Shown here in pieces: positions 1-60,096 of a stretch of DNA of 64,000 nt. Position numbers and translations under genes: made by a program. The DNA is taken from positions 1 through 64,000 of the forward strand of contig NXFV01000959.1 of NCBI GenBank assembly GCA_002803225.1, written 5' to 3'. This DNA is from Gamarada debralockiae (lineage: Eukaryota > Ascomycota > Leotiomycetes > Helotiales > Hyphodiscaceae). A model generated the notes under the pieces. That model did not search any database. It saw nothing but the letters and a program-made list of their open reading frames with translations, and was not told the origin of the DNA. Within the stretch, counting starts at the first letter, position 1. Every line of letters starts with the position of its first letter.

Positions 1-606
1 GGCATCTTCAACATAGGCATGTCGTTGGCGCTTGTGACGGCCTGGTCTTCTAACTGGGGGTACAACTGAGACTGTACAGGTCTGGTGGTCTCGGGGGTCA
101 TGAAAAACAGCATCCATAGAACCATGATCTCCATGCTCAAAGGTCATCCTCATCGCGCGTGTAAAAGGTTGTCCAAGAAGAACTATTGGCAGAGTCTGTC
201 CCTTTGATTCCCGAACCAGGAAGAAAACTGTAGTGCACCCAACTCTATGTTCAATTTCGATATCAGCCTTTGCCATCCCGGCGAACTGAAGTACCTGTCC
301 TGAAACCGTCTTCAACTTAAGGTTCTCCGTAGTTAGGATTGGACACCCAAGGCTCTTGGCAAGCTCGTATGACATAACATTGGCCTCTGCTCCCGTGTCA
401 AGCATTGCTGGTTCAGAAGCTACATCCGTAGGTCCCATGATATTGACTGGCAGCTTGGGGGTTGCCACAATCCAACCTCGAGTTGCAAAACCATCTAGAC
501 CGAGCGATTGGATGCTGACGACAGCTTCTTCCTTAATGGGCTTTCCTTCGATAAGAGACTTCAAAGCAGTTCGGGCAGCATCAGTGACCTCAAACAGTTC
601 TCGGTA
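1..606 (-). CDS. retrotransposon retropepsin (start of pol), partial
   Basis: Open without any stop from 606 down to base 1, in exactly the gag frame and separated from it only by the TAG at 607-609. It starts YRELFEVTDAARTALKSL, with no ATG near the start. The aspartic-protease signature LDTGAEANVMS lies at about 385-418 and the second conserved motif LLGQPF at about 163-180. Retropepsins of this type process Gag-Pol. Synthesis would need readthrough of the UAG or another bypass. The product continues beyond the window edge. Confidence 0.8.
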
Positions 607-3555
607 CTAGATCAGATCGGCTAGAAGCTTGTCCCGAACAGCTTCTGCAGGATGTCCACTTCCCAACTGGGTAATCAAGTCCCGGTATCCTTTTGACTTC
701 TTGGGTTGACGTGCTGTGAGCTTAACTCGGCGCTGGGGCTCTCCAGTAACAGTTTCAGGCGAGATCCGGTCAAATTCCTCGAGAGACTGTACAACGTTGG
801 TTTCCTGATGAAAATCGGGCCTCGGAATCACCTCAATTGTTTCCTTAACACTCATGTCCTCTGGGTCCTCTGGCTCGTATGCAGATTGTCTCCGTACTTT
901 GGGTCCAGGTAGTTTAGCCTCTGCCTCGATTTTCCTCTGAAGTTCAGCCTTGTCCTTTCGCGCTTTACTCCAATCGGTGTGTTTGGTAACCTTGGATTGA
1001 ACACCACTGCTTGAAGTCTTAGGCTTGGTGCGGGCCTGGGATGTATTGGCCATGAGAGTCGTCCATTCGTCGAGTTCGGAGTTAGAGTCAGACTCAACTT
1101 CCACGGAACAAGCGTGTATCCTTTTATCAAGAAGGTCATCGATATCTCGTCCGTTATTATCAATAACAGAGTAGTGTTGGACTGGAAGCTTTGGGGTTTC
1201 TGGTCGCTTTATGATACTTCGAAGTAGAACTGCATTGGCTCCGGTTGCATTGGCCTTCGCCCGTGCCTGGGCTGCCTCCTCTGCCTGGTCCTGCTCCTCC
1301 CGTATATTCCCAGCCCATCGAGTAACATCCGGGTCATACTGCGTTCCTCTGGTCCTGGAAATGATTTGTCGAACCCAAGGGGCATCTCGACGCAACATGA
1401 TTTCTTCCGCTCCTTCCTTCCAGGGTCCAAAACAGAGTCTTCCGTTGAAATTCTTGTGACAGACCCTACTCTGGACAAGCTCTTGGAGTTGCGGGCATCT
1501 ATCCGAGTGTCCGTGAGGGAACTGTTCCGGGTTACCATTCTTGTCGATGTTGTAGCAGGCATAGCAGTTGGGTCTCCCGTTATACCCATTTCCACCACTA
1601 AAGGCACTATATACAGCGGACGCGTTGATAGTATCGTTGGTAGGAACATTTTGGTTGTTCTGAAAGGCCTGAGATCGTTGATTGAAACCAGGTCCACGTT
1701 CACCACGAAATCCTCCGTACCCTCGACCTTGGTAGTATCCTCGATTGGTGTACCCAGAGTTGTTTTGGCCTAGGGCAGCTCGAAGCTCCTGGCCGATTTC
1801 CTCCCGGACATCACGGATTGCATTGGTCTGAGCAATGCGAAGTTCTTCCAGTTGTCGAGCCAAATCGTTCCGTGGATCTTGGGTCCTGGCGCTTGCACCA
1901 AACTTGGTAGGGAACATCCGGTCTAAGGCAGGCGCCTGGGGAGGTTGCGCTTCTGGTTCGTCTGGTGCAGTCCTCTTGTGGGTGTTCAGATCTTTTAGAA
2001 TGTTGTTGATAGCGCTAGCTTTCGAGCTTAGCATGACTGGGTTCCGGCTTTCCTTGTATCGGTTGATTACTTCGTCAGATTCACAGACCCCAATAGCAGT
2101 CTTGTGGAAATTGGCGTACACCAGGGTCTTCCCATCATCCAGGTCTACATTGTGCTTCTTGACGATCTTAGAGCGGATCCGATCCGGCAATGCAAAAAGA
2201 AAGAGATTGGCCCGTTCCACTTCATCAAGAAGGTTCCTTTCCTTAAGACTAGCAGAAACCCGATAGAAGAGCTCGATAAAGTCCTTCGATTCGATTTGTC
2301 CATGCTGTGCCGATAAGACTAGGGCATCTAGGAAAGGGCGAGTGTGCTTGGTATAGTCGTCATCATAGTCTCGGTACTTCCTTTTCAGGGCTGCAAAGAA
2401 AGCCCCCTCATCGAACGGCTCGTTGGTGTACTCCGGCATGGCCCTGACATCGTCACGAAGAGCGATATCAATATGGCGAAGGATTCGTCCGTGTCTGTCT
2501 TCTCCATTACAGTTCCAGTCTTTAAAGAAGGCGAGGAGTTCATCAACCCAACGCGTTGCTCCTTGGCCATCAAAGATAATACCAGCTGAGGCAGGAGTTG
2601 GTATCACTGCACGCAGCACAGTGATATTGTTGGTAGAGTTGGCCAGATCACTTGGGTTACCAGAGGCCATTTCGACTGATGGTTCACTTGGCGTTGAAGA
2701 ATCTGATTGCAGTTCTGGGGGCGTATTCTGTTGGCTCTCTGGTTGAGGTTGTTGTCCGTTTTCTGAAGTGCTGCCTGACGGTGGTGTGTTGGTTGAGGTT
2801 GTTGAAGGATTCCTAAGGGCCGGTGGTGTTGATGTTGTCCTTCCTTGATTATGGTTGGTTGACTTCCTCTTCAACGAAGAAGCTCTGTTGTGCATTCCTT
2901 GAAAACAAAAGAAAATAACCCGTTGTTGTCGTCCTTGTTGATATTGTTGTCCTTGATCGTCTTGATGATGTTGTCGATTATTTTTTCCATCATGTCGCTT
3001 CCCTTGAGGGGGAACCCTTCCTTTTGACCCCATCCTCCCCCTTGAGCTTAGTCCTGGGCGCTCAGACTTCCTAACCCTTTGATTCCAACTCTCGTTTCGA
3101 GCTGATACTGCTCGTTCACCCCAAACAGAAGCTTTAATGACTTCAGGGTCAACATCACAGTATTTCCGTGGTCCTGAGTGGCTTTCTTCCCATCTCATAC
3201 TCAAGGCAAAAGCCCCTTCAAACATCAACTCCGCAATGATACGGAAGATCAGGAGGGTTGTGACGCAAAACGTGATCAGGACCTGGTTCCCAAGCTCTCC
3301 AACACCTCTCCATCCTTCCTGATAGGGTCCCAGGAGACCTTCCTGACACCTGCCCCTTTCCCCTATCACACTATCCAAGTCCTCCTGAGGTTGGACCTCT
3401 GCCTCAGGTAAAGCCACAGATCTTACTGTAGTTCTACCTATCTTTACCCCTTTTCTTATAGAATTGGCCATTGCCTGTGATCCGCTTGGACCTTGGCAAG
3501 AGGCACCCGTGACTAAAACCATTCCAACTCTCTGTTGATGGCGCTTGTAACCCAT
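607..3555 (-). CDS. retrotransposon Gag-like polyprotein
   Basis: A 982-codon frame from an ATG at 3555 to a TAG at 607-609. The middle (roughly residues 340-540) has the all-helical, charged character of retrotransposon gag capsid regions. The part before it is very rich in Pro, Gln, Ser and Thr. A Cys/His cluster near residues 685-715 (CYACYNIDKNG..., then HGH and further Cys) looks like a non-standard zinc knuckle, preceded by a Gly/Arg-rich RGYGGFRGERG tract that fits nucleic-acid binding. The first 220 residues look unlike gag. An alternative initiator at 2895 (MHNRASS...) follows a pyrimidine-rich stretch ending in CAAG, so either the leader is spliced or translation starts at 2895. The frame continues without a shift into the protease beyond the TAG. 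Confidence 0.75.
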   Translation of the reverse strand: MGYKRHQQRVGMVLVTGASCQGPSGSQAMANSIRKGVKIGRTTVRSVALPEAEVQPQEDLDSVIGERGRCQEGLLGPYQEGWRGVGELGNQVLITFCVTTLLIFRIIAELMFEGAFALSMRWEESHSGPRKYCDVDPEVIKASVWGERAVSARNESWNQRVRKSERPGLSSRGRMGSKGRVPPQGKRHDGKNNRQHHQDDQGQQYQQGRQQRVIFFCFQGMHNRASSLKRKSTNHNQGRTTSTPPALRNPSTTSTNTPPSGSTSENGQQPQPESQQNTPPELQSDSSTPSEPSVEMASGNPSDLANSTNNITVLRAVIPTPASAGIIFDGQGATRWVDELLAFFKDWNCNGEDRHGRILRHIDIALRDDVRAMPEYTNEPFDEGAFFAALKRKYRDYDDDYTKHTRPFLDALVLSAQHGQIESKDFIELFYRVSASLKERNLLDEVERANLFLFALPDRIRSKIVKKHNVDLDDGKTLVYANFHKTAIGVCESDEVINRYKESRNPVMLSSKASAINNILKDLNTHKRTAPDEPEAQPPQAPALDRMFPTKFGASARTQDPRNDLARQLEELRIAQTNAIRDVREEIGQELRAALGQNNSGYTNRGYYQGRGYGGFRGERGPGFNQRSQAFQNNQNVPTNDTINASAVYSAFSGGNGYNGRPNCYACYNIDKNGNPEQFPHGHSDRCPQLQELVQSRVCHKNFNGRLCFGPWKEGAEEIMLRRDAPWVRQIISRTRGTQYDPDVTRWAGNIREEQDQAEEAAQARAKANATGANAVLLRSIIKRPETPKLPVQHYSVIDNNGRDIDDLLDKRIHACSVEVESDSNSELDEWTTLMANTSQARTKPKTSSSGVQSKVTKHTDWSKARKDKAELQRKIEAEAKLPGPKVRRQSAYEPEDPEDMSVKETIEVIPRPDFHQETNVVQSLEEFDRISPETVTGEPQRRVKLTARQPKKSKGYRDLITQLGSGHPAEAVRDKLLADLI

Positions 3556-3792
3556 GTCGTAAATCTTAAACTATACCCAGAATGTAAAATAACTTGATCC
3601 AATAAACCCAATTCCATCAAGTCAGACTAAGCTCTCTCCTACAATGGCGCTATATCCTGAAACATGTGATAACCCTGAAACAATCATCCCCTGAACTATC
3701 TTGCACAACTTGAAAGCATCAGAACTAAAGCAAACAAAGCAAACATCCCTCACTTGAGAATGCGAATGCCTTCACTTGACTGCGAAAAAGGC

Positions 3793-3810
3793 TCCCTGCG
3801 TAGGCCACCA
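3793..3810 (-). other. primer-binding-like site of the retrotransposon
   Basis: One base inside the inferred LTR end the minus strand reads TGGTGGCCTACGCAGGGA. A leading TGG pairs with a tRNA CCA end, and the position is where a primer-binding site should lie. I could not assign a tRNA, and self-priming elements also exist in fungi, so this is a positional call. Confidence 0.4.
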
Positions 3811-3811
3811 A

Positions 3812-4167
3812 TGTAGAAGGAACGAAATGCGAGTATAAGCGCGTCCCGATTGCGCTGTGTATCGCACGTGCTCTCAGTGAGGGATAGAACAAAAACGATG
3901 CAAAACGAAGGTCATAGTGCATGAAAGCACACCCAAATGTGTCTGAAAACGAGGTAAAAAACTGTATTGTATGATGTGTGATTATGCGTAAGTATCTAAG
4001 TGCTGTCCTGGCTGCGAAGGCCATTTATGTCCCGCTGGCACGTGACATCCAGCTAAGCGATCAGCGTGACCGATTTCCCCACCACAGTAATAGTTGCCAT
4101 GTGAAAGCGCTCATGAAATCGCCTGTGAAATCGCCCGTGTACCTTCAAGAGCTAGGCTCTTGTTACA
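3812..4167 (-). repeat. 5' long terminal repeat (356 bp)
   Basis: Read on the minus strand the block starts TGTAACAAGAGCC and ends CTTCTACA, giving the TG...CA ends with inverted TGTA/TACA termini expected of an LTR. It sits directly upstream of a primer-binding-like sequence and the gag frame. A CATAAATGG stretch in its middle could serve as a TATA element. The partner 3' LTR is outside the window, so the boundaries rest on terminal motifs and context, not on a direct repeat that I can compare. Confidence 0.6.
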
Positions 4168-4187
4168 TATAATATAGATATATATAA

Positions 4188-4464
4188 TAGCTGAGGTAGC
4201 TGGAGGGCAACAAGAGGGATTACAGTACGTTAGAGTAGTAACAGTTCAATAATAGAAGAAGTAGTTGTTGTATTTGTTGTACTAGCAATAGGGGGTACCT
4301 AAGTACTAGTGTAACAGCACTTCTTCAAAGAGTCTTCAATGCGTGAGACTTCATTTCGTTGAGCTGTCACACTATCGGCACAACCATTGCTTCTTCTTTT
4401 ACTGAACTGCTACTTCTCTTATATACTGTGATCCCTCCTGTTGCCCTCCAGCTACCTGTAGCTG
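4188..4464. repeat. LTR-like palindromic repeat, about 80-bp arms
   Basis: The plus strand from 4188 (GCTGAGGTAGCTGGAGGGCA...) and the minus strand from about 4464 (GCTACAGGTAGCTGGAGGGC...) match over about 80 bp with roughly ten differences, giving a large imperfect inverted repeat around a loop of about 110 bp. The minus-strand arm holds a TATATAAGAG box, as expected of an LTR promoter, so this is probably two head-to-head solo-LTR fragments or a small palindromic element. A related 40-bp stretch recurs at 14642-14681. The retrotransposon LTR begins only 20 bp to the left. Confidence 0.6.
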
Positions 4465-6321
4465 TATTGTATAAAAATACTAAGCTAAGGAGAGAAGGAA
4501 AAGGTTCTATAAGTGCATGACCTAATATATCTAAAGGGCACGCTAGTATGCTCAGCCCTTCACGCGTTGACATATCAAGTCTAGTCCTTTCCTCTTTTGA
4601 CCTTTTGCCTTGATTGTAGGAGCTTTTCAGACCTTCCTGACAGTGCCATGGAGTACTCGGCAGCGCGATTCCATATCCGGTCTCGGAAAGGGATTTACTT
4701 GAGACTGTCGTCTCGAGCCTTAGACCTCAGGCATCAATTCCTTCAGGGCCGTCACAGTAGCTAGCTAGTGGATAGATAGTACGGTGAAGGCGCCTTCCAT
4801 TAGCCACGGCACGTCTTTACAGGTAAGGCCTAGTATAGAGCCGCTTGGTTTAATAGGCAGCGAGTAATCTATTGAAATAGTAGAACTACTGTGCCTGGTT
4901 TTTTTTCCTTTTAGGTTTTCCTAGGGTTTGTACTTCTAGGATGTCAGTTGGGACGGTTTTTGGGGCGAAATATCGTAAATTCTTGACTTAGCTAGATATC
5001 TATGGCGCGTAAAAAATCAAGGCGGGGTACAGCTCCTTTATCCTAAAGGAAGAAGCAAATACAGACTAGACCCAATAAGGAAGGGATCAGCATTCCAACC
5101 AACATAGGAGTGCTGCATAGCTCACTAGCTGGCCAGCGTAAGAACATCAACCAACCAACCAACCAATCGACCTCCTAATTATAACTCTAAGGAATGATAT
5201 TAAGACAGCGCTACTTTTTAGTATAAATGTAAAGAAAGATTTGGTTACGTAGAACATTAATAGAGTTGATTGTTGTGGGTATAAGATACAGCCTGTAGAG
5301 CCTGTACTTCTACTGTAATGAATGTAATTCGACCTGATTTCCCCCATACACTGAGCTGCGCTATTGTGCAACCTAGACTACCTTTGTTGCTTATGATTGG
5401 TTGGATCCTCGATCCAACATTAACAGGCCAAATGCTAATCCCAAATGCTAATCCCAAATGCTAATCCCAAATGCTAATCTATCAGAAATCCTAGGTGAGA
5501 TGCTGACCATTAGCCATACGAAAAGCCGACAGTGGAGACTAATAGTGTTGTCAGATGCCCCTTGTTGGTTGCTATGGTGACGGCTGTTTACATGTATATC
5601 GGGTTCTGGCAACCCCATGGTTCTTCCCTCCTTAGATATCAATACATACATGATTTTAACACACAATATCGTCTGATCGACAAGTGTATCCACTCAACCC
5701 TTCTCAGACATCTCTGTTTGTCAGCTTTTGACTGTTCGATTTTTATTAAGAGGGATTATGCTGTAGGTTCAAAAAGCTGCTTCTAACCCACTACCCAGCC
5801 ACTTAGGACTCACAAGAAGGATTTCGAAATATTCAAGGGCTCATGCCCCACCAACGGTCCTCGCTTCAAGCTGTACCTGATTTGGATAAATGGTTAGGGC
5901 GATGCCGCCTCAATTTAGTTAACTAGCCAGCCTATGCATATTCAGATTGTTTAAGTTCATATGATATTTTCACTAAGCCCAAAATATCTCTTCGTTGGCC
6001 CAGGCGCTATACAGAAACATGATAACAACTCGTACATCGTCTCCTAGATGTGAATTGCCTTCTGGTGGCCCCTGGAGCTTAATCCCTCTCCTCACCACCT
6101 TTGCAACCTTTTTGAAGTTGGGATCGGATAGTTTAAGTGGGTCTTCGAAAAAAAAAAAAAAAAAAATTTTTTTTTTTATGTCTGACGCTGTTACGTCCGT
6201 CAGATATCACGTCTTTAGATGTAGCAATGCTAACATCTGCGGAATTGTCGCCGTGAGGCCTTGTTTGTCTTCAGTGTTGCTGTCAACCAGACTCAATGCT
6301 CGGCACCAGCCTTCCCCACTC
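4465..6321. other. gene-free, repeat-bearing region
   Basis: Apart from the 13-bp minisatellite and a homopolymer block at 6148-6177 (19 A followed by 11 T), I see no reading frame with protein-like composition, no splice-consistent exons and no RNA gene. Confidence 0.6.
5428..5479. repeat. 13-bp tandem repeat, four perfect copies
   Basis: Unit CCAAATGCTAATC repeated four times without a mismatch. It lies in gene-free sequence. A short AACC run occurs at 5148-5165. Confidence 0.9.
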
Positions 6322-7086
6322 CTACACCATTTGCGACCCAAGTTCATTTGTACGGTAGAAGCCGCGGTTGCGCTTGCTGTCCGTTTCTTCGGCATCGGAG
6401 GCTCGAGCCTTTATGACGCAAATCAATCGCACTACTCTTCTTCGCCTGCTGTGTAAGATGCGCAAAACTTTTCGCGGAACCTCACTCATGTAGGCTACAA
6501 GATCGAGCCGTATCGGAAGCCCATCCACCAAGTCTAAAGCAACTTTAAAAAGACTTATGGCGCCGTTATGCATTACGATGAGATACTCGGACGTCCCCCA
6601 TGTGTATCTCTTTGTACTGAACGGCTCTTCGTCCACGCGTTTTAAGACCTCCAAGTCCGCTTCAGAGCCGCTTGGGTCGAGGGTCTGCCGGATGAAAAAT
6701 TTGCGAGAACATCCCCTCCAAATCGAGAGCCATTTTTTGTGGCCCATAAAGTCCCGTACAGGGGCTGCAACGCCTTCGATACTGCCTCCACCGACCCCTG
6801 CATTTAAGGAAATCTTGGCCTGCTTCGAGAGCTTTAGGCTCACCAAGTCCTGATCATGGGTAAAGGATCGGCTCGACGGGAGCGTGTATGCGTTCAACTG
6901 GGCCCAGTCAGGGAATAAACGAGAGAATGTGATCGACCTTGCTGTATCCCAATGAGGCTCTACAGTTCCTGTGACGAATTTCTGAACAGATCCGTCTGCT
7001 TGTGGCAGTATCTGCCCTTTCGGTGCGGAATTTTGCCGTTGGTGGAAAGTGAGCCTGTTCCACCACGTACGCACTACCATGTACAT
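6322..7086 (-). CDS. hypothetical protein, 254 residues
   Basis: Uninterrupted frame from an ATG at 7086. I do not recognise the family. The product starts MYMVVRTWWNRL, has no obvious signal peptide or membrane segment and ends in a basic region (HSRRRRVV...). It is downstream, on the same strand, of the decayed repeat module at 7285-7840, so it may be the surviving 3' part of a larger decayed gene and not a free-standing one. Against it being real: no homology that I can name, no evident promoter, and damaged surroundings. In favour: 254 codons without a stop and fairly ordinary composition. Confidence 0.35.
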   Translation of the reverse strand: MYMVVRTWWNRLTFHQRQNSAPKGQILPQADGSVQKFVTGTVEPHWDTARSITFSRLFPDWAQLNAYTLPSSRSFTHDQDLVSLKLSKQAKISLNAGVGGGSIEGVAAPVRDFMGHKKWLSIWRGCSRKFFIRQTLDPSGSEADLEVLKRVDEEPFSTKRYTWGTSEYLIVMHNGAISLFKVALDLVDGLPIRLDLVAYMSEVPRKVLRILHSRRRRVVRLICVIKARASDAEETDSKRNRGFYRTNELGSQMV

Positions 7087-7284
7087 AAACTGGATTGAGG
7101 AAAGGGATATGAGAGCCTGGTGATATTCCTACTCCTGCTCCTGCTGCATCTTTATTACTAGCATAAGCTGCCTCAGCGACCAGATTGGTTGGTAGCCATC
7201 CTAATAATAAAAATAAAATTAATGAGTATGGCTCCCGTCCATGTTCTGCACCAACTGGAGCTGGGGCAGCAGTAGCAGGTGCAG

Positions 7285-7840
7285 ATTACAATCCGAACAC
7301 ACCTGGTGTGGGTGCTTTGGTTCCTGTGAAGTTCGACGCGCTGGATCCCAATCTGTTGGCAACCTTTGGGTTTGGTAGGGAGGTGAAAGGCAGGATATAG
7401 AGCGCCTCTTCGAGACGACGGCTATACTGCGTCAGGCTGATGCCAAAACTGCTGCCTGTGTTCGGCCTGTAGAAGTCGTCATCCCGCGACCAGAGTTTAC
7501 ACTCTTCGTCCTCAAAGTCAGCATCTGACTGTGCATCGTTTGTATAATCGCTTAAGTCCTTTAAGATATCCTTCTGAAGCGCTTCGGGAGCGTGTATAGG
7601 GACAACTGCAATTTCACCTGAATGCTTCAGTTGGGACAGGCCTTTGTAACTCCTCGATTCTGGTCTTGGAGGATAAAACAGCTGCCTGCGTTCGACGTGG
7701 AGAAGTCGTCATGCAGCGACCATAGCTCACACTCTGCGTCCTCAAAGTCAGCGTGTAGCTCTGTATCGTTGGTGTGATTGCTCATACACTTTAAGATATC
7801 TTCGCGAAGAACTTGTAAGGTTTCTAGAGGTCGGCCGGTT
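7285..7840 (-). pseudogene. decayed gene carrying a duplicated peptide module
   Basis: Two minus-strand segments (about 7680-7825 and 7446-7620) encode related peptides. The upstream copy reads LREDILKCMSNHTND...DFEDAECELWS and the downstream copy LQKDILKDLSDYTND...DFEDEECKLWS. Both are followed by a DDF..N.GS tail. The two copies are not in one continuous frame: the upstream one runs into a TGA after about 20 further codons, while the downstream one is preceded by an open stretch ending in EIAVVPIHAPEA and continues to a TAA near 7285. No ATG starts either copy. The module family is unknown to me. The preserved third-base variation argues that the duplication was once translated. Confidence 0.55.
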
Positions 7841-7893
7841 AGTGTAGTGGTTTAGGAATGGGCGGCTCGAGAGCTTTCGTCCGACCTGAGTGC

Positions 7894-9275
7894 CTACTCT
7901 AGAAAGAGTTGCCAAGAGTTACGACAACCTTTGAGCCGAAACTCTGTCCGCATCGCAAATCTATAGAAGAGATTAACCAGTTTAGCTAACCTAGGGGTTG
8001 CCTGAGACGGAGTGAAATAAATACAAATTACTGAGGAAAGCCCCAGCTGCTTCTGGACATTTTCACATTTGAACGTCATTACTAACCCCATGCAGTCTAA
8101 TTTAGAGCGGGTAGGCATCCTCAGAGCTATGACTAGTAAGGGTTTAGGGCCTTAGCTCTGTACTAAAAGTTAGCCCATCAGCATCGATTCCTCCTGGAAT
8201 AGGTTTAAGCTTTCCTGCACTTCCTATACGTCATACACTTCATATTTCTAATTAGCTACATTGAAATATCGACGGATTACGTTAAATCTAGGTTATGGTC
8301 TAACTACAGCCAAAGTTGGTTGGACCGTAAGTTTGATAGCCGGCCAGCCTTGTCTTGTGCGGCCACATATTTCAGGGCATCAAATTCTTGTGACCGACAG
8401 AAACTGTCGTGCACGGACCTACGGCGTAGGTCATGTGATATGGCCTGTGCTCAAGCTAGGGAAAACCTCAATATCGAGCCTGTATCAAGCGGCCGGCCAT
8501 TCTGGAGTTTCTCATAGCGCTGCTAATGGAAGCTTGACTTGTCAAAATTCCTTCGAACAATGGAGCTACAGTGTTTATCTTGCTATTTCAATCCATCATC
8601 ACAGCCGCTCACCATCTCCCCACGGAAACCGAAGCCTTCCCTGCTTCAGCCCCAAATTACCCCACTTGCCTAAAAGAGCACTGCTCGCGAGCCGGATTTT
8701 GAAACCAATGCCCGCCTCCTCCCTTTCCTAACTCCGAAATATCCATCGCACCGTCTTCTACATTCACGAGTCTGGATATGAGACGAGATGGCGTGAAATC
8801 GATGCGAGGATGGCGAAGGCGTTTGGTGAAATGACGAAAGTGGTTGGCTCACTGTGTTTGACACTTTCAGCGGCGGCGAATAAAGACCTCGCGCTTCCTC
8901 ATCATTTGAAGTCGAAATGAATTTTCGTTCACGAAATCTTCTCGAAAGACGACAGGAGCATTAGAAAAATTCCGGTAAACGATTTCAATCGCTGTTCAAT
9001 CGTTCACTCGATTTCGGCGATTTACTTGGTACCCAAGCCTACTTCCTGTAATAACGCCTTTCAAAGCTCAAAGTCAAAGGCGAGTAAAGTTTCCCACTCC
9101 TGGATCCAGAAAGAGCATTCCCCTCATCTCATTTTTTCAAATTCATTCAATCACGCAGACTATTCCATTTACGCAGTCGTTCAATCAAATCCACTTTCTA
9201 ATGCGATTCAACAGCCTCCACATCTATCACGATCAGCTTCTGAAGGCGTATCAATCCACCGAACAAATAGCCAAG
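7894..9275. other. intergenic, no gene seen
   Basis: Only short frames with unconvincing composition. The last 100 bp form the promoter and leader of the aldo/keto reductase gene, which starts at 9276. A weak tRNA box-A-like word lies just to the left at 7840-7850 without a good box B. Confidence 0.6.
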
Positions 9276-33568: not shown

Positions 33569-35527
33569 ATGTTGAATTACCAACCTCTTAATTTCACGAC
33601 CTTCGAATTCCGGCTTTTGAAAGTGCTACCCACTCAGGCCGGAGACGACAATAGCACCATCCGCTGCTCCCTTGACCACAGCTCCTTGATTGAGCCTCCC
33701 GAGTATCACGCTCTCTCTTATTGCTGGGGAGACCCGGAAATCACGACAAGTATTATAGTTAACGGGGAATCCATGCAAGTCACCACGAACCTCGACGCTG
33801 CTCTCCGGGAACTCAGATCCCAACATTTGACGACGCTTTGGGTGGACGCATTGTGCATCAATCAGGAGGACGTGACTGAGCGAGGACTCCAAGTCACACG
33901 TATGGGGTTAACATACTCCAGGGCGGAGGAGGTGATAGTGTGGCTTGGAGAAGAAGCCGATGACTCTGCAAGTGTCATGGTTTGCCTGAACGAAGCGTCT
34001 AAAGGGAAGTCCTTCGATTTGGTGCCACCCATCGTCAAGCCCGCCATCTTGGCATTGCTACGGCGGCCGTTCTGGAGACGGGTTTGGATCATCCAAGAAG
34101 TTTCGAAATCCCGAAAACTTAGGGTTTTCTGTGGGGCTTATAACGTTGATTGGGAACAAATGTACGACGTTCTTACAGCTTGGAAACTTGTTCCCCCTGT
34201 GATCAAGGCACTCCAGAGATTTCGATCAGTGGAGCAGTTCAATGTGGATATAAACCGCCCAGAGCTCATCAAAGGGCTTTTCGAAACTATTCACAGTCTG
34301 TCAACCGACCCCCGTGACAAAATATATGCGATTTTGGGACTATGTTCGGACGGACCGTATCTTGTTCAGAGTCCAAATTATGTGCAACCCCCTGAAAGGA
34401 TATACTTTGATCTTCTCATGGCGCTTATATCAAGAAATCCAAAATTAAACTACATGGCCCGACAAATATCCACAAGCAGTACTTTGCTGGTCAGTAGTAT
34501 TCCTCATCCAGACTGGACAATGATAACCCACGGAATTCCATTCTGGACTTTGAATGCATTGCTCGTTAAACAAGTAGAACCCATAACTGGATTTTATATA
34601 GATCCTATGGCTTCTAAATTTTTCCCTGTATCTCGCCGTGTTAGAACAATCGGATTAGAAGAGTTTCCATCCCTCTCATTTTCTGGATTACACGCATCGG
34701 TAGTCGTCATAGATTCGATATTACAACTCCCAAATGGCCAATACAATAGCCCAGATAGCAGCGACGCTACAGCCAACCTGCCAGAAGCGAGTAATGCTGA
34801 CGCACGACATGTGATGACATGTTTTGGGAATGCTCTGTTACTACATCACTCCAGCAGCGGAAAGTGCGCCTCTTTTCAATCGCCACGTCAACGGAAAAGG
34901 AGCCCATTCATTCATCCATTGTTGGTGGCATGTGCCTTGACATATTTGTGCACAAGATCCAGTTCGAGTGACGACTTCGACGACAAACCCGGCAGTACGC
35001 TCGCTTTCTCTGACTGGTACAAAAACAACGGATCTCTCAAGTTTTGTGGAGAGAAGTTAGAGATGTGGGCGAGGGTCTACTCCCAAAGTTCCGAGTACAA
35101 ATTCGAGGCCTTTCCACTACTTTACCTTGGACGTGTCAAAGGAAGAATCCGGGACGTCGTTCTGGAGATATCACTCCTCATGATAGAAGGAATCCAGTGG
35201 GCAAAAAAACACAAACTTTGTCTTGCGACGGGTCAGAAGGCGAAGGTTATTCAGCTCGTGCCTTGCGAAGTGATGCAAGGAGACCTACTTTGTCGGATCC
35301 GATACAGCTGGGCGCCAATTTTCATTCGGCCGGAAGGTAATAGGGGCTATCAGTTTGTTTCATTCAGTAGGGCATCTCCATGGCTCTGTAGAAAAAAATA
35401 TGACTATATTCGAAATTTCTTCAACCGGAAGGTGAAGATAGATATGTGGGATTGGGTAAATGGGGTTGTTAAATCTGACCACGGAGAACAGGAGGAAAAG
35501 AAGTGGGAAACAATTACAATGTATTAA
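33569..35527 (+). CDS. HET-domain (heterokaryon incompatibility) protein
   Basis: Single exon, 652 residues, ATG at 33569. The HET domain covers about residues 45-200 with its three signature blocks: EYHALSYCWGDPE, LWVDALCINQEDVTERGLQV and, further on, EEVIVWLGEEADDSASV leading to RPFWRRVWIIQEV. STDPRDKIYAILGL, standard in this family, follows. HET domains are TIR-like cell-death effectors in fungal non-self recognition; most family members are of unknown specificity. The C-terminal 400 residues have no repeats that I can see. The gene is intact, in contrast to the HET remnant at 50630-52843. Codon use is unremarkable and the 3' flank becomes AT-rich. The adjacent upstream STAND-type gene on the same strand suggests a recognition locus. 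Confidence 0.93.
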   Translation: MLNYQPLNFTTFEFRLLKVLPTQAGDDNSTIRCSLDHSSLIEPPEYHALSYCWGDPEITTSIIVNGESMQVTTNLDAALRELRSQHLTTLWVDALCINQEDVTERGLQVTRMGLTYSRAEEVIVWLGEEADDSASVMVCLNEASKGKSFDLVPPIVKPAILALLRRPFWRRVWIIQEVSKSRKLRVFCGAYNVDWEQMYDVLTAWKLVPPVIKALQRFRSVEQFNVDINRPELIKGLFETIHSLSTDPRDKIYAILGLCSDGPYLVQSPNYVQPPERIYFDLLMALISRNPKLNYMARQISTSSTLLVSSIPHPDWTMITHGIPFWTLNALLVKQVEPITGFYIDPMASKFFPVSRRVRTIGLEEFPSLSFSGLHASVVVIDSILQLPNGQYNSPDSSDATANLPEASNADARHVMTCFGNALLLHHSSSGKCASFQSPRQRKRSPFIHPLLVACALTYLCTRSSSSDDFDDKPGSTLAFSDWYKNNGSLKFCGEKLEMWARVYSQSSEYKFEAFPLLYLGRVKGRIRDVVLEISLLMIEGIQWAKKHKLCLATGQKAKVIQLVPCEVMQGDLLCRIRYSWAPIFIRPEGNRGYQFVSFSRASPWLCRKKYDYIRNFFNRKVKIDMWDWVNGVVKSDHGEQEEKKWETITMY

Positions 35528-53979: not shown

Positions 53980-56900
53980 CTAGCTCAGATTTGATTGCAA
54001 GCCTGAGAAAACCTGATCAAAAATCTGGGGAATAACATGCTTATCAAGCTCCAGCCTCCTGAGTACTTTTTGAGGAATCATCTCACAAAGTTCCTTGGGT
54101 ACATTCCTTAACATCTCAATCATGACTAGAGAATTTTGAACCGCGGAAAGAAAATCGCCCTCTCCAAAGAATTGTATATATTTGGCCCTTTGGATCTCTG
54201 CCTCATAGAACCACTTATAGGCTCGTTCCACTTCCAGATGTTGAGGCAGTAGCCACGGTAGTGTTGCCATGGCATCAGAATGATCATACCGCTGCAAGAG
54301 ATGCACCACAGTCTTGAGAGCAAGTCGAGGGCGTCTAGATTCTCCAAAGTGGCGGTGCAGTGTCCTGAACTGGTTCCAGTCTGTGAAATCCCGCGCGAAA
54401 AATCTACCAAGATTCGTTTCAATTGGCTCGTTGAATGAACCTGGGCTTTCAAGTCTCCGCATGGTTTTAATTTCCGTCAAAGCTTGAGCATAGTCTTCAG
54501 TGTTAAAGGCAGCCTGCCACGTATGGAAATGTTGTTGCCAGATCAAGCTTTTAAAGTTGTTGCGTGTAGGTTGGACGAGGCAATCCGGTATTCCGGGATA
54601 GTTGCCAGCCTCGTAATCCCGAAGTATGGATTCGATCATCGTGATCGCATCCGCATAGCGACCTTCTTCCACGGCCTGGCCCGCAGTCATCAGAACGTTG
54701 ATGAAGTCCCGGGAGCTCAAAAGCATTTGCCGCTTCCCCGACATGTTCTTGAATGGTATGCCAGGTAAGAGTGTGGGATCATCAATCTCTTCAAGTTTGT
54801 CCAATGTTTCTATAGCCTTCTCGAAGTCTCCTTCTAGTAACGCTTGCTGGTGTTGTTGGATAAGATTCCCAAACTGTTTGCCAAGCTCCAGAAGTTTCGC
54901 TTTTCCTCCCGGCTTTTGTGCATATTCGCGATATTGCCCTAGCAGATCCTTGAAGTGCCTCTTTGGTGGTTTCTCAAATTTTTGCCCAACAACCTGCTCC
55001 GACTTCTTTCTTTGTGCTGTCTCGTACAAACTTTCTGCTTGCGAGTGGTAGTATCCATTCTCTGGCACCCGAAACTCCGAGCTTTTGATGTCTGCCAAGA
55101 AGGTTTCATTCATCTCCGGGGTTTCGCCAAGCCCCGCAACAGAGGTGCACAGTTGAAGCATTTGATACGTGGTCTCGGATTGCTTCTTTAGCTCTAACAT
55201 CTGGTTGAGATCTTCTGCATATGCTTCATCTGTCCGATAAATTCCAATCAAAGAATTTTGTAACTCTATGGACGACTCAAAGTTCCGTTCCTCCATAGCT
55301 TGGGCCAAAAGAGCTTTGTAATGCTTGATAGCCTCTACTCGATTTCGAACGCTCAATGAATTTTCCAGCTCTGCACTTCTAGTAGTAGAATCTAAATCCT
55401 GAGAGTAGCCGATCCAGTCGGTGGAAAGATCGTGCTTAATAGAATTGATGTCTAGTCCACTGAAACTCTTTCCAGCCAGCTCTGCAGGACCCGTTCCATT
55501 TTTAATTGACTCTTGTACCTCGGCTATATCGGCCTTCATGTCTCTCCTTCGGATGAAGTTCTCGATCTGGGAAGTGCGCTGCTGCAAGCTTGGGATATGT
55601 TCAGCGATTTGATCCCAGGTCACAGATTCGATGTCCACTAGGGATGGCAGTCCCTCCAGCCCAGATATTGCACTACGAAAGGTTGAACATTCCGCCAATG
55701 ACTTCGAACCTTGCGAGAAATCGGCTGAGTCGCGGTACATCATAGCTAACGAAACGGCGCCAACGAGATCTTTATCTTTGAGCAGCTCGTCGTCCGTTTT
55801 GTCTATCATGTCAAAGGTGAGTAGAGAGAACTCCTTAGCTCGCTTGGTAGGAAGAGTTGAAATTATCAAGTGCGCAGATGTGAGGTAATTCCCAGCCGAT
55901 ATCATCAGCAACAGAGCTCGAACGTCTGTCGGAATTATACGGCGGGAAATGAATCTTCTGACGAAGGTTTCGTATTGTTTGGCCAAAAGCGCTGTCTCAT
56001 CAACGGACAGGAACCACATCCCGGCGCAGCCGTACATCTGCAAAGAATATGGCCAAAAATCCAGGCAAATGAGCTCTTTCCCCAGTGAGCAGAGTCTTAA
56101 ACAAGTGATGATATTGTAGAATGCTGGCTTCAGGACTTCCTCGAAGCCTCTGAATTTCCCAGCCTCAGCTGTTGTTCTCATAAATTTGTCCAAGTTTCGG
56201 CTTGATATCCCGCTGAAGAATAGCCGAGTGAACCATGGTACAGATACATCTGGCATTGAGTCTTGGTCGGACTCCAGCGCCCAACGAAGAGGTCCCGAGA
56301 GCATCACCCTTGCAGAGGTAAATATGCAACGTCCCGCGAGGGTGAATAATGGGTGCATGTGTTCAACAAATCCTTGGCCGTCTAGGGAAAAATAGCCCCT
56401 ATCGACCCCAAAATCTAATGCCTCAGCAATTACATGTTCCTGAGCCGCCTCTACCAACGTGTTTAAAACTTTCTTCGAGCATCCTTGATGCCAATAGAGA
56501 ACCAAGGCTGCGAAGACGTTGGCATAAATCGGCGGCAGTCGTCCAGAAATACTGGAAAAGAACATATCTCGTCTCAGAAACGAGCTTTCATTTGATGTAA
56601 CAGGCCAAACTCCCGAAAATTTGTGGAAGAGAATTTGTTGGAACAGTTCCTTCCAAGGATGGCCCTGAGACGCAGTCGCTCGTAGAACTGTATGAATGGC
56701 AAGTGGGTTGCATTGAAGTATGTTGAGGACTTGTGACAAGACGTCTTCGTCTTCATGTCCCCACTGACTTCTGTCAACACCGTTGTCTCCAAGTAGATTG
56801 TGGGCAAACTCTATCGCGTCAGGAAGGGACAAGCCGTTCAATTCATAACGGGGGAATGTAGGCAGGTCTGGGAAGTGCTTCTTCCACCAGTCATCGTCGT

Positions 56901-58728
56901 TCCTTCTCCCTACGAGAACGAGTTTGAGGGCTTCTTCTTCGTTGTCTGATCTGATGCTAATAATGTCTTTTATTAAGGTCATCAGAGCGAATCTTGTTCT
57001 TTCAGACCACCGACCATGATCGGTCATCTCATTCACATCCGAGTGGCTTGCTTCCAATTTGTCCAAAACGATAACTTGGTAATCGTCCCTAAGTTCCGCT
57101 AACGTGGATCGATACTCGGTCTCGTCTTTCCCAATAACGCATGATGTTGACTGATTCGGCCTGCCACCTAACAACTGCTGAAGAAGCGTTTCGGGAGTAT
57201 CAGTTCTACCCAGGTGAAGTGATGAACAGTCCACATGGAGTGTCTTTTCAAATAGCCCAGTTTCTTCCCAGCAGCGAAGAAGGTGGTGAATGAATGCTGT
57301 CTTGCCAACGCCAGCAGGTCCTGACAGTCCAGTAATGTTTGATCCAAGGAATATTGTTTCGAAGCGGAGTACGTCAAAACCTCGTCCAACTAGAGGAGAA
57401 GAGGTTGTAAGTTTGTCTTTAGAGACCGTCGCTAGTACAGGAGCTTCGATCTGGAAATCCTTGTCTGGAATGCCGGAGATCTGAAGCTCCACGTCTTTCC
57501 CACTGGCGTAGACTACCGGTACTATCCAGTCCTCTAGCGGTCGGTTGATGGCGAAACGAGCGTCTCGGTTCGGCGAGCAACGCAGCTGTTCCCGAGCATC
57601 TCGCACGGCAATCGAAAAAGGCTTGCCACTGGCGATGAGAGATTCGTAAAAGCAGCGCATGAACTCTGTGCAAGTGCTGCTGAGGATTTTGTAGGCCATA
57701 GCTAGCACATTCTGAACACCGGCCTTAGTGAACGTTCTCGCTATATTTGCCTCGTCTCCTTTGTTTGCCTTGGCAGACTCGCAAGCGTTGAGTACGGCAA
57801 TTCTAATGTTGTGCTTCCGCAGCAGATCCGCGACGGCTCCAGCTCGTGTAGCGATCAATGTACCGTTCCCTTTTCTTGATTGGAATTTCAGAAAAGCCGC
57901 AGTGGTACCTTTATCTTCCTCCTTCTCACCGGGAACATCAACTACTCCGTGTACGTCGAAATGAATAATGTGGATATCACCGTTGCGTCGAAGGCTGGAT
58001 CTTTCATCCAAGTGCTTCTTCAAAGCCTGGAATGAGCCTGGACGAACTACCTCGATGTTAAGTCGAAAGGCGGCACCTCGAGTCTCGAGGTCCCTTTTGA
58101 GTGTTTGCATGCTGTGGAATACCAGGTTCGGATCTACCTCGCCTTCACCCCTCCCGATAAGTTTGCGCGAAACGACGAGGAGGATGTTCACCGCAGGTAC
58201 TCCTCGTGACCAAGACTCGACTCGCTTAATAGAAAGAATTGAAGTTTCCTTTTGAGGAATGATACGTCGCACTGTTGTCCGTATATTGAGGTTCTTCCAA
58301 AGTCGGGGATACTCAAGAACTTCCCAGTGCAGCCGATGGACGGTATTTGACGAGACTGCATTTGAGTCTTCCGTGTCTTCGACAATGTCTATCTCAAGGA
58401 CTTTGTGTTTAGGGCTTGTGGGACCCGTTAACCTCCTCCATACTCGGCAGAGATGAAGCTGATCAAACAAGCTATCGGCATAGGAGTTGAGCGACTCTGC
58501 CGCAACGTCTGCTCTGTCTTTCTCGAAGGGTGATTTGTGAAGGTAATCTTCCAGATACCAGCGGCATTCATCCTCATCGGCCTCGGAGAACGGATCCAAC
58601 AATGTAACCTTCCTGGCAAAGCAGGCGCCTCCAAGATAGACAGTAACTTCCCATCCGGATGAGGCCGCCTTAAATTGCCGCACAAGTATCCTTAGATGAT
58701 GGGTTGGACTTCTAGAGGATTCTGCCAT
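53980..58728 (-). CDS. NLR-like protein with N-terminal CHAT protease and NB-ARC-type ATPase
   Basis: Single uninterrupted exon of 1582 codons, ATG at 58728. Residues about 150-415 form a CHAT (caspase-related) peptidase domain: His260 in IIHFDVHG and Cys316 in VLNACESAK are the expected catalytic dyad, followed by VLAMAYKILS and FMRCFYESL as in the family. Residues about 445-700 form a STAND ATPase: PLVGRGFDVLRFE, Walker A GPAGVGKT (470-477), Walker B YQVIVLD (550-556), an Arg-bearing LVLVGRRND strand (603-611) and CNPLAIHTVLRA (673-684), the GLPL-like motif that points to NB-ARC rather than NACHT. The remaining 880 residues are helical, charged and without clear repeats; probably the sensor part. 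Such proteins oligomerise on ligand recognition and activate the N-terminal effector. The divergent neighbour encodes a gasdermin-like protein, the likely substrate. Confidence 0.9.
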   Translation of the reverse strand: MAESSRSPTHHLRILVRQFKAASSGWEVTVYLGGACFARKVTLLDPFSEADEDECRWYLEDYLHKSPFEKDRADVAAESLNSYADSLFDQLHLCRVWRRLTGPTSPKHKVLEIDIVEDTEDSNAVSSNTVHRLHWEVLEYPRLWKNLNIRTTVRRIIPQKETSILSIKRVESWSRGVPAVNILLVVSRKLIGRGEGEVDPNLVFHSMQTLKRDLETRGAAFRLNIEVVRPGSFQALKKHLDERSSLRRNGDIHIIHFDVHGVVDVPGEKEEDKGTTAAFLKFQSRKGNGTLIATRAGAVADLLRKHNIRIAVLNACESAKANKGDEANIARTFTKAGVQNVLAMAYKILSSTCTEFMRCFYESLIASGKPFSIAVRDAREQLRCSPNRDARFAINRPLEDWIVPVVYASGKDVELQISGIPDKDFQIEAPVLATVSKDKLTTSSPLVGRGFDVLRFETIFLGSNITGLSGPAGVGKTAFIHHLLRCWEETGLFEKTLHVDCSSLHLGRTDTPETLLQQLLGGRPNQSTSCVIGKDETEYRSTLAELRDDYQVIVLDKLEASHSDVNEMTDHGRWSERTRFALMTLIKDIISIRSDNEEEALKLVLVGRRNDDDWWKKHFPDLPTFPRYELNGLSLPDAIEFAHNLLGDNGVDRSQWGHEDEDVLSQVLNILQCNPLAIHTVLRATASQGHPWKELFQQILFHKFSGVWPVTSNESSFLRRDMFFSSISGRLPPIYANVFAALVLYWHQGCSKKVLNTLVEAAQEHVIAEALDFGVDRGYFSLDGQGFVEHMHPLFTLAGRCIFTSARVMLSGPLRWALESDQDSMPDVSVPWFTRLFFSGISSRNLDKFMRTTAEAGKFRGFEEVLKPAFYNIITCLRLCSLGKELICLDFWPYSLQMYGCAGMWFLSVDETALLAKQYETFVRRFISRRIIPTDVRALLLMISAGNYLTSAHLIISTLPTKRAKEFSLLTFDMIDKTDDELLKDKDLVGAVSLAMMYRDSADFSQGSKSLAECSTFRSAISGLEGLPSLVDIESVTWDQIAEHIPSLQQRTSQIENFIRRRDMKADIAEVQESIKNGTGPAELAGKSFSGLDINSIKHDLSTDWIGYSQDLDSTTRSAELENSLSVRNRVEAIKHYKALLAQAMEERNFESSIELQNSLIGIYRTDEAYAEDLNQMLELKKQSETTYQMLQLCTSVAGLGETPEMNETFLADIKSSEFRVPENGYYHSQAESLYETAQRKKSEQVVGQKFEKPPKRHFKDLLGQYREYAQKPGGKAKLLELGKQFGNLIQQHQQALLEGDFEKAIETLDKLEEIDDPTLLPGIPFKNMSGKRQMLLSSRDFINVLMTAGQAVEEGRYADAITMIESILRDYEAGNYPGIPDCLVQPTRNNFKSLIWQQHFHTWQAAFNTEDYAQALTEIKTMRRLESPGSFNEPIETNLGRFFARDFTDWNQFRTLHRHFGESRRPRLALKTVVHLLQRYDHSDAMATLPWLLPQHLEVERAYKWFYEAEIQRAKYIQFFGEGDFLSAVQNSLVMIEMLRNVPKELCEMIPQKVLRRLELDKHVIPQIFDQVFSGLQSNLS

Positions 58729-59214
58729 TGCTATAGCAAAACGAGACGGATAGTGTTTGCGATGTAATCAGGCAGATGGACTGTGACGAGATGGGCATTT
58801 CATGCCGACTTGCCGCAACAAGCTCCAGGAGGACTATTTAGAACCCGGCATTTCTCGAGATGCTCAATAACTTTCAGAAGTAACCATGCACTGGTTTGTA
58901 GGTGATTGTTTCGAGGTGGAAGGCCTTGAGATGTCGAAGCTGTGTACGTTGACGTTGACATCTGACCGATTTCAGCTTCAGCGCTAATTTTGTGGCGTAC
59001 TCAGCTGCTGAGCTTGAACTAATAGCCTCTCAACAAGTTTCACGCCGCTGCGTGACCCCTGCCAAGAACGGCTCGCAGAGAGAAGATACCAACTATTTAT
59101 AGCATCGTATAGTATTTTTTTGGCGTGACCTTTGGTAGCGTTCCCAGCCTTGTTTCCTCACCCCAAAATTCCACGACTGGCGACAGACACATAACACCAA
59201 CAGGACATTGCAGG
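58729..59214. promoter_or_regulatory. shared divergent promoter region of the CHAT-NB-ARC and gasdermin-like genes
   Basis: 486 bp between the two start codons. TATTTATA at 59094-59101, 114 bp before the gasdermin-like ATG, could be its TATA element. No TATA-like word of similar quality was found for the protease gene. A common promoter would allow paired expression; this is inference. Confidence 0.5.
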
Positions 59215-60096
59215 ATGCCGGGCCGCCACTTCGTCCTCGACGAACCCGCTTCGGAAAGCAATGCTGGAAGGTTGATTGGTCGTGTTGTCCTAGATATCAC
59301 ATCGCCTCTCAGGGCATTCGCACCGAGAGAGGCTGCTGAAGGTACACCGGCGGGCCGTAACCCTCAAGACATCATCCCGAATATTTTGCCTATTCCACAA
59401 TCGTCCACAAACAGGAAGGATTTCATCCAGAATAATGTTTCGGGCGAGGGTCGAACCGGCCTCACGGACTTCTTTGGCTTCAACATCACCAGAACCGAGG
59501 AAGAGAAATTGACCTTAAAAAGCAAGGTGGTCAAGCAATATTCATTGGAACAGACCAAGGATGTCTTCGACGAACTGATGAGAGACCATTCATATAACAG
59601 CGAGGTTCGACAGTTTCTGAAGGAGCACAGAATCCGGAAAGCATATTTTGTTGTGGGATTCATAACGACAGAAGGCTCAGTCTGGACCCGCGAGCGGATG
59701 CGAGGAAATTCGGCCGGAATCAAAGGCCAACTCCCATTGTCTACCGCCGCCCTTGGACCAATTACTGGACCTGATCTGAGCATGAAACTGTCTACGTCAG
59801 ACAACAAGGTTCGAGAACAGAAGTTTTCGTCGAAGGAACCTCTGATATTCGCGGTTGCTTATGATGTCGTCAAATTGAAGAAGAGGTTCGATAAAACCGT
59901 CCCAGGATATTTCAGAGATGATGTGGTCCTGGGACCGGTGAAATATGTCAAGTCAAAGCATCTGGTGATGGGACGAGATGAGGATGAAATTATCGAGGAG
60001 GAAGAAGATTCGGAGGAGGATGTTGAGCTTGATGGTGGTTTGGATTTGAAAGATCTTGGTTCTGGGTGGGATGGACTGAGTTTTAATGTGGTGTAA
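59215..60096 (+). CDS. gasdermin-like pore-forming protein (putative)
   Basis: Single exon, 293 residues, ATG at 59215; an upstream in-frame extension lacks an ATG. Length matches fungal gasdermin-like proteins such as HET-Q1 and RCD-1. The pattern also fits the pore-forming fold: an early strand GRVVLDITSPLRAF (22-35), helix-rich middle, then long amphipathic strands KAYFVVGFITTEGSVW (142-157) and SSKEPLIFAVAYDVVKLKKRF (205-225), which parallel the strand pair ending in LAFRV-type sequence of gasdermins. A very acidic segment (residues 255-271) begins a short C-terminal tail of about 40 residues. In HET-Q1 a comparable tail of about 5 kDa is removed by a protease to release killing activity at membranes. 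The divergent CHAT-NB-ARC gene is the expected activator. Assignment rests on pattern and context. Confidence 0.7.
   Translation: MPGRHFVLDEPASESNAGRLIGRVVLDITSPLRAFAPREAAEGTPAGRNPQDIIPNILPIPQSSTNRKDFIQNNVSGEGRTGLTDFFGFNITRTEEEKLTLKSKVVKQYSLEQTKDVFDELMRDHSYNSEVRQFLKEHRIRKAYFVVGFITTEGSVWTRERMRGNSAGIKGQLPLSTAALGPITGPDLSMKLSTSDNKVREQKFSSKEPLIFAVAYDVVKLKKRFDKTVPGYFRDDVVLGPVKYVKSKHLVMGRDEDEIIEEEEDSEEDVELDGGLDLKDLGSGWDGLSFNVV

Follow-up and report, generated by a model that had tools for sequence, protein, structure and literature searches.

Comparison with described systems

Over 80% of gasdermin genes in fungi are reported to be clustered with a protease gene (PMC12881547). For CHAT genes, 19% of fungal gasdermin genes are placed within 10 kb of one, with dozens of the clustered proteins being NOD-like receptors (NLRs) or NLR-like proteins with a CHAT domain (PMC10197012), and two-gene clusters of a CHAT-NLR and a gasdermin in fungi go back to Clave et al. 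2022, a study quoted by PMC9815663, PMC10197012, and PMC12881547. We analyzed the window, a stretch of 64,000 nucleotides of Gamarada debralockiae (contig C452 of a 54.3-Mb, 1112-contig fungal assembly), in which a CHAT-NACHT receptor protease gene lies head to head with a gasdermin-like gene. Since CHAT-NLR/gasdermin clusters have already been published, this arrangement belongs to a known class, of which the window pair is a well-supported new example.

With the published clusters the pair shares adjacent genes, an NLR with an N-terminal CHAT domain, and a gasdermin with a short tail. In contrast to the clusters as described in these sources, its gasdermin belongs to a subfamily without a Pfam model and with a distinct C-terminal motif, and the candidate sensor region of its receptor carries no named repeat. 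In P. anserina, a gasdermin is switched on by a TPR-CHAT protease from the same gene cluster (PMC12881547). There too, a CHAT gene stands beside a gasdermin gene, and a pair of the same make-up (TPR-CHAT) is found on contig C869 of the present assembly, whereas in the window receptor CHAT and the helical region are separated by a NACHT ATPase. HET-Q1 of P. anserina is activated by removal of a C-terminal fragment of ~5 kDa (PMC12881547); it likewise combines a gasdermin bearing a C-terminal piece with a protease, and cleavage would be the counterpart at the window pair. HET-Q2, however, is a subtilisin-like serine protease, and het-Q1/het-Q2 are idiomorphs (PMC12881547), whereas both window genes reside on one chromosome. 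RCD-1-1 and RCD-1-2 of Neurospora crassa represent the closest solved fold; unlike the window gasdermin with its acidic tail, RCD-1 is described as having no inhibitory C-terminal domain and as requiring two variants for death (PMC11760362). In bacterial gasdermin systems, too, proteases are encoded next to a gasdermin that has a short inhibitory piece at its C-terminus (PMC10197012), but the link of these systems to the window family is one of fold and logic: among 157 pattern matches on prokaryote genome contigs, no gasdermin relative was confirmed, nor was any among 94 pattern matches on viral contigs. A CHAT-domain protein is also encoded by hetB of Aspergillus fumigatus, an incompatibility gene, for which no gasdermin was shown (PMC11138114); the window pair is known from one genome.

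The divergent gene pair

The locus comprises three elements.

53980..58728, minus strand: CHAT-NACHT-helical receptor protease, 1582 amino acids (aa) in one open frame (Pfam; relatives P0025-P0028)
59215..60096, plus strand: gasdermin-like pore-former, 293 aa (relatives, profile search, structure model, fold search)
58729..59214, no strand: gap of 486 bp between both start codons, candidate shared promoter region (open reading frame positions)

Both frames, of 1582 and 293 codons, are uninterrupted and without need of an intron, the smaller one being nested in a 323-codon frame opening with GTG at 59125. An earlier note on this DNA, the sequence-only reading, had given the same positions, lengths, and 486-bp divergent spacing, which places a protease gene well within 10 kb of a gasdermin gene. 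The pair is more than a chance neighborhood, because the protein lengths are kept in relatives and the genome contains the pair a second time in diverged form. Among 12 relatives of the gasdermin-like protein with 59-80% identity, nine have 292-309 aa and the others 277, 353, and 401 aa. The four closest receptor relatives (P0025-P0028), from a search scoring only the 7993 candidates with most shared words, have 1525-1580 aa and are 54-65% identical.

A predicted gasdermin fold

The 293-aa protein is divided into a pore-forming part and a tail.

59215..59955, plus strand: gasdermin pore-forming domain, about residues 1-247

The sequence-only reading had recognized a gasdermin-like strand pattern by eye and had set structure prediction beforehand as the test that could refute it. 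Structure model and fold search both point to a gasdermin N-terminal fold with RCD-1 as nearest, in agreement with the pattern. On the level of sequence profiles, RCD-1-1 was the top PDB sequence for A2 (E 0.0073) but came only third for A1 (E 1.9) and did not appear for A4. Family databases gave no name to the protein: no Pfam family matches it, and neither NCBIfam nor PADLOC matched it or two further gasdermin-like proteins of the genome (C1095 and C869, see below). A Pfam scan of the 25 gasdermin-like proteins of alignment A1 returned seven families at E <= 1, the top one being GerD (7/25, best E 0.0022), which we judged to be chance. The protein might instead be a member of a different beta-rich group of pore-forming or lipid-binding proteins, e.g., a CDC/MACPF-like one, with a likeness to gasdermins in outline only. 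CDC and MACPF-type chains are indeed also among the fold matches and the identity to gasdermins is just 5-15%, but with RCD-1 as the closest fold, we regard this explanation as hardly plausible.

The CHAT-NACHT receptor

The following features were assigned on the receptor protein.

57562..58059, minus strand: CHAT protease domain, residues 224-389 (Pfam PF12770, E 4.9e-16)
57781..57951, minus strand: candidate catalytic dyad from His260 (57949-57951) to Cys316 (57781-57783), motifs IHFDVHG and LNACES
56992..57327, minus strand: NACHT/STAND ATPase core, residues 468-579, with Walker A GPAGVGKT at 469-476 (Pfam PF05729)
56341..56355, minus strand: HPLFT, residues 792-796, candidate motif, invariant in 8/8 proteins (alignment A3)
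53983..56181, minus strand: C-terminal region, residues 850-1582, nearly all helical, candidate sensor (structure model)

The CHAT domain with its two dyad motifs, claimed from the letters, was recovered by Pfam with a score of 59.4 bits (cut-off 24), the match spanning profile positions 123-273 of 289 and leaving the start of the model uncovered. Alignment A3 consists of the window receptor and seven of the ten relatives found, the three most distant (P0032-P0034) being left out; within it, His260 and Cys316 are invariant in all eight proteins. With a domain above cut-off and a conserved His-Cys dyad, the receptor is a predicted CHAT protease of clan CD.

The ATPase had been labeled as NB-ARC type. 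Its assignment as a STAND NTPase with a P-loop holds, with residues G470, A472, G473, G475, and K476 as well as N674-P675 being invariant in A3 (8/8). The NB-ARC label was dropped in favor of NACHT/STAND: NACHT (PF05729) is the best-scoring ATPase family with 28.0 bits (cut-off 26.7), the Pfam matches of the receptor lack NB-ARC, and a genome-wide NB-ARC scan with 43 matches did not include this locus. The HPLFT motif we take to be a candidate winged-helix MHD-like motif. For residues 850-1582, the model (predicted local distance difference test, pLDDT, 68.4; predicted template modeling score, pTM, 0.39) is almost wholly helical, while no Pfam repeat family (ANK, WD40, TPR, or LRR) scored above cut-off. 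Foldseek put TPR chains of P58(IPK) on top, yet with no match at E <= 0.001; from the model, we suspect a degenerate TPR-like sensor solenoid. In NCBIfam and PADLOC, only weak CHAT-like or other matches to the receptor were obtained.

Related pairs in the same genome

Searching the genome with the window gasdermin revealed three places, C452, C1095, and C869, the latter only at E 0.03; searches with the C1095 and C869 gasdermin-like proteins recovered the same three, and the C869 frame was also found at E 1.4e-10 with profile A5, from which the C869 protein had been left out. On C1095, a gasdermin-like protein of 313 aa, 37% identical to that of the window, is encoded 337 bp from a divergent CHAT receptor gene of 1635 aa (29% identity over 841 residues to the window receptor), for which Pfam reports CHAT above and NACHT, AAA_16, nSTAND6, and NPHP3_N below cut-off. 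This receptor (frame closing at 870) and P0031 carry a cysteine-rich C-terminal stretch absent from the window receptor, which is possibly metal-binding. On C869, a 285-aa gasdermin-like protein is divergent from a TPR-CHAT protein of 1187 aa at a distance of ~1.2 kb. Both the His and the Cys motif are found in the CHAT proteins of C452 and C1095; the C869 protein also has the Cys motif, its His motif AHFACHG being read by eye.

All three clear gasdermin-like genes therefore sit divergently beside CHAT genes, which is what the linkage proposed by the sequence-only reading predicts within this genome. A naive chance of 1e-9 was calculated for three independent cases, or 1e-6 if the two related pairs count once; this rough figure allows 8 kb of surrounding sequence for each of the seven CHAT matches found, a lower bound for the genome. 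It is against this recurrence that a mere neighborhood or promoter sharing, with the CHAT-NLR and the gasdermin-like gene acting in separate pathways, has to be weighed. CHAT-NLRs of Hyaloscypha variabilis, a member of the Helotiales, are present in the database with no gasdermin named from that species seen, and other CHAT genes of the assembly have non-gasdermin neighbors, namely a caspase gene (C446) and an unknown 276-aa gene (C422). Given the repeated divergent arrangement and the protease clustering reported for most fungal gasdermin genes (PMC12881547), we consider separate pathways very unlikely and continue with a functional pair.

A fourth candidate locus was treated as a lead only and not counted, based on its weak profile scores and a missing start. 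On C872, a 206-aa frame with an acidic tail (529-1149, minus strand), its start missing, is divergent to frames leading into a CHAT frame, which we read as one gene; among 1229 frames, profile A2 scored it at E 3e-4 and A5 at 1.3e-3, A4 did not find it, and its hhalign probability was 8.6%. Also uncounted is a C24 frame (4939-5577, plus strand) with an acidic tail and its first part missing, which profiles A2, A4, and A5 did not find. The C24 and C872 frames share a gasdermin-like core by eye and are 38% identical over 61 residues (E 0.02); with composition correction switched off, blastp gave E 2.4e-6 for the two. Subtilisin was dismissed as a partner, none of the 14 S8 matches in the genome being located on C452, C1095, C869, C872, or C24.

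Further CHAT loci differ in their surroundings. The caspase gene on C446 (Peptidase_C14, E 1e-17; 1155-1952, minus strand) is divergent to a CHAT gene (3645-6707, plus strand), with a plus-strand frame at 2886-3617 between them, and may form a caspase-CHAT pair. The 276-aa protein on C422 (3291-4121, minus strand), without a Pfam match and divergent to a CHAT gene (4953-7952, plus strand), may be another kind of effector. C707 holds an AT-rich CHAT relic (GC 0.32) with stops, no 100-aa frame in 10 kb, and a repeat-induced-point-mutation-like signature (TA/AT 1.6); among six CHAT proteins compared, it is nearest to that of C869 (32% over 432 residues).

Acidic tail and terminal motif

Three features were defined at the C-terminal end of the gasdermin-like protein.

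59971..60093, plus strand: acidic C-terminal tail, residues 253-293, net charge -15 (A1 alignment)
59941..59976, plus strand: conserved junction of pore domain and tail, residues 243-254 (A1 alignment)
60076..60090, plus strand: C-terminal motif LSFNV, residues 288-292 (motif count versus shuffles)

Alignment A1 comprises 25 gasdermin-like proteins including that of the window, three of them with N-terminal extensions and three without the N-terminus. The acidic tail noticed in the sequence-only reading proved to be a family trait: split at residue 253, all 25 members end in an acidic tail of 38-63 aa with a net charge of -12 to -23, while the remainders are near neutral to basic (-1 to +17). 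Across residues 248-293 of the window protein, pLDDT is below 50. At the junction, Leu250 is conserved in 25/25, His249 in 17/24, and Met252 in 17/25 sequences, and residues 243-254 might serve as a cleavage or docking zone. Craspase, a CHAT protease, cuts L|D, M|K, and A|S in orthologues, i.e., at non-conserved sites near the substrate C-terminus, and its authors suggest docking over the scissile bond as the determinant of specificity (PMC11106740). Since Craspase cuts at non-conserved sites, junction and terminal motif may serve docking rather than the cut itself, and a scissile bond within the conserved junction is kept as conjecture.

The constant tail also bears on the possibility that the gasdermin is real but activated without cleavage, by gasdermin pairing or receptor contact, with CHAT acting on another substrate or only on itself. 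RCD-1, the closest fold, sets the precedent with its two partner variants and lack of an inhibitory C-terminal domain (PMC11760362), and this genome has several gasdermin-like genes. The 25 acidic tails, however, are unlike RCD-1 (257 and 244 aa), and each of the three clear loci lies beside a CHAT protein carrying His and Cys motifs. We thus rate non-proteolytic activation as improbable and retain activation by the CHAT protease.

The tail-end motif [SYIGLT]F[NDEST][VILMF] is present in 23/27 sequences (misses: the C1095 protein, P0017, P0024, and P0035), whereas shuffles (n=2000) averaged 1.5 such sequences and never exceeded 7. None of 17 C869-type sequences has it; 12/17 of those show a terminal pattern of their own (G-E-x followed by three hydrophobic residues), which occurs in 1/27 of the window type. 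These figures overstate independence, because both patterns were defined after viewing the alignments and many sequences are close kin. Judging by titles and abstract openings, we found no publication on such a motif in the literature collection searched. Tentatively, the motif (S/Y-F-acidic or polar-hydrophobic) might act as a latch or docking tag that is specific to the subfamily and recognized by the matching CHAT receptor, a “key” per gasdermin lineage, although we would not expect it to be the likelier case. By analogy with Craspase, docking rather than the scissile bond could then set specificity, and with lineage-specific terminal patterns, several protease-gasdermin modules could operate side by side in the same cell without cross-talk. 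The absence of the motif from the C1095 protein agrees with this tag idea and equally with a motif of little importance.

Proposed mechanism

Taken together, we think it likely that the two genes form a fungal “contracted pyroptosis” module, in which CHAT cleavage would free the gasdermin pore domain; the proposed cut of the tail follows the analogy with HET-Q1 and the P. anserina TPR-CHAT protease. At rest, the acidic tail of ~41 residues would hold the 293-aa gasdermin inactive, and the NACHT ATPase would do so for the 1582-aa receptor. A cue, either from allorecognition or from a parasite such as a mycovirus, may bind the helical C-terminal region of the receptor and let the ATPase oligomerize, which would activate the His260/Cys316 CHAT protease. 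The protease would then cut off the tail of the gasdermin, in the region of residues 243-254 provided that the whole tail is lost, and the freed pore domain would presumably oligomerize in the plasma membrane and kill the compartment. Of the cell-death module as proposed in the sequence-only reading, the CHAT/gasdermin pair is supported and the NB-ARC label is not, while activation by cleavage, oligomerization, and a non-self cue are inferred. That such arrangements form a published class had been touched on only in part by that reading.

Several observations weigh against this reading. The gasdermin model is middling (pLDDT 63.8, pTM 0.61), with TM-scores of 0.43/0.51 to the best RCD-1 chain besides the low identity; NACHT clears its cut-off only narrowly; the C1095 gasdermin lacks the tail motif; and contig C24 carries a weaker gasdermin-like candidate without any CHAT match. 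Furthermore, H. variabilis has two CHAT-NLR relatives (P0027, P0028) with no gasdermin relative named from it in our searches, which could mean that the two genes are not linked in every species or that the smaller one escaped annotation.

Elsewhere in the window, a 652-aa HET-domain protein (33569-35527, plus strand; Pfam HET, E 7.2e-30) represents an incompatibility-type gene ~18 kb from the pair, and a 982-aa frame (607-3555, minus strand) has a retrotransposon Gag-type look by eye.

The window pair adds a clear CHAT-NLR/gasdermin module to the fungal self-destruct switches already known, with a gasdermin branch that has no name in the family databases searched (Pfam, NCBIfam, PADLOC). Two diverged copies of one module together with a TPR-CHAT type in one genome constitute a natural test of protease-gasdermin matching. 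Should the tail motif prove to be a tag, it would explain in concrete terms how death pathways running in parallel stay apart.
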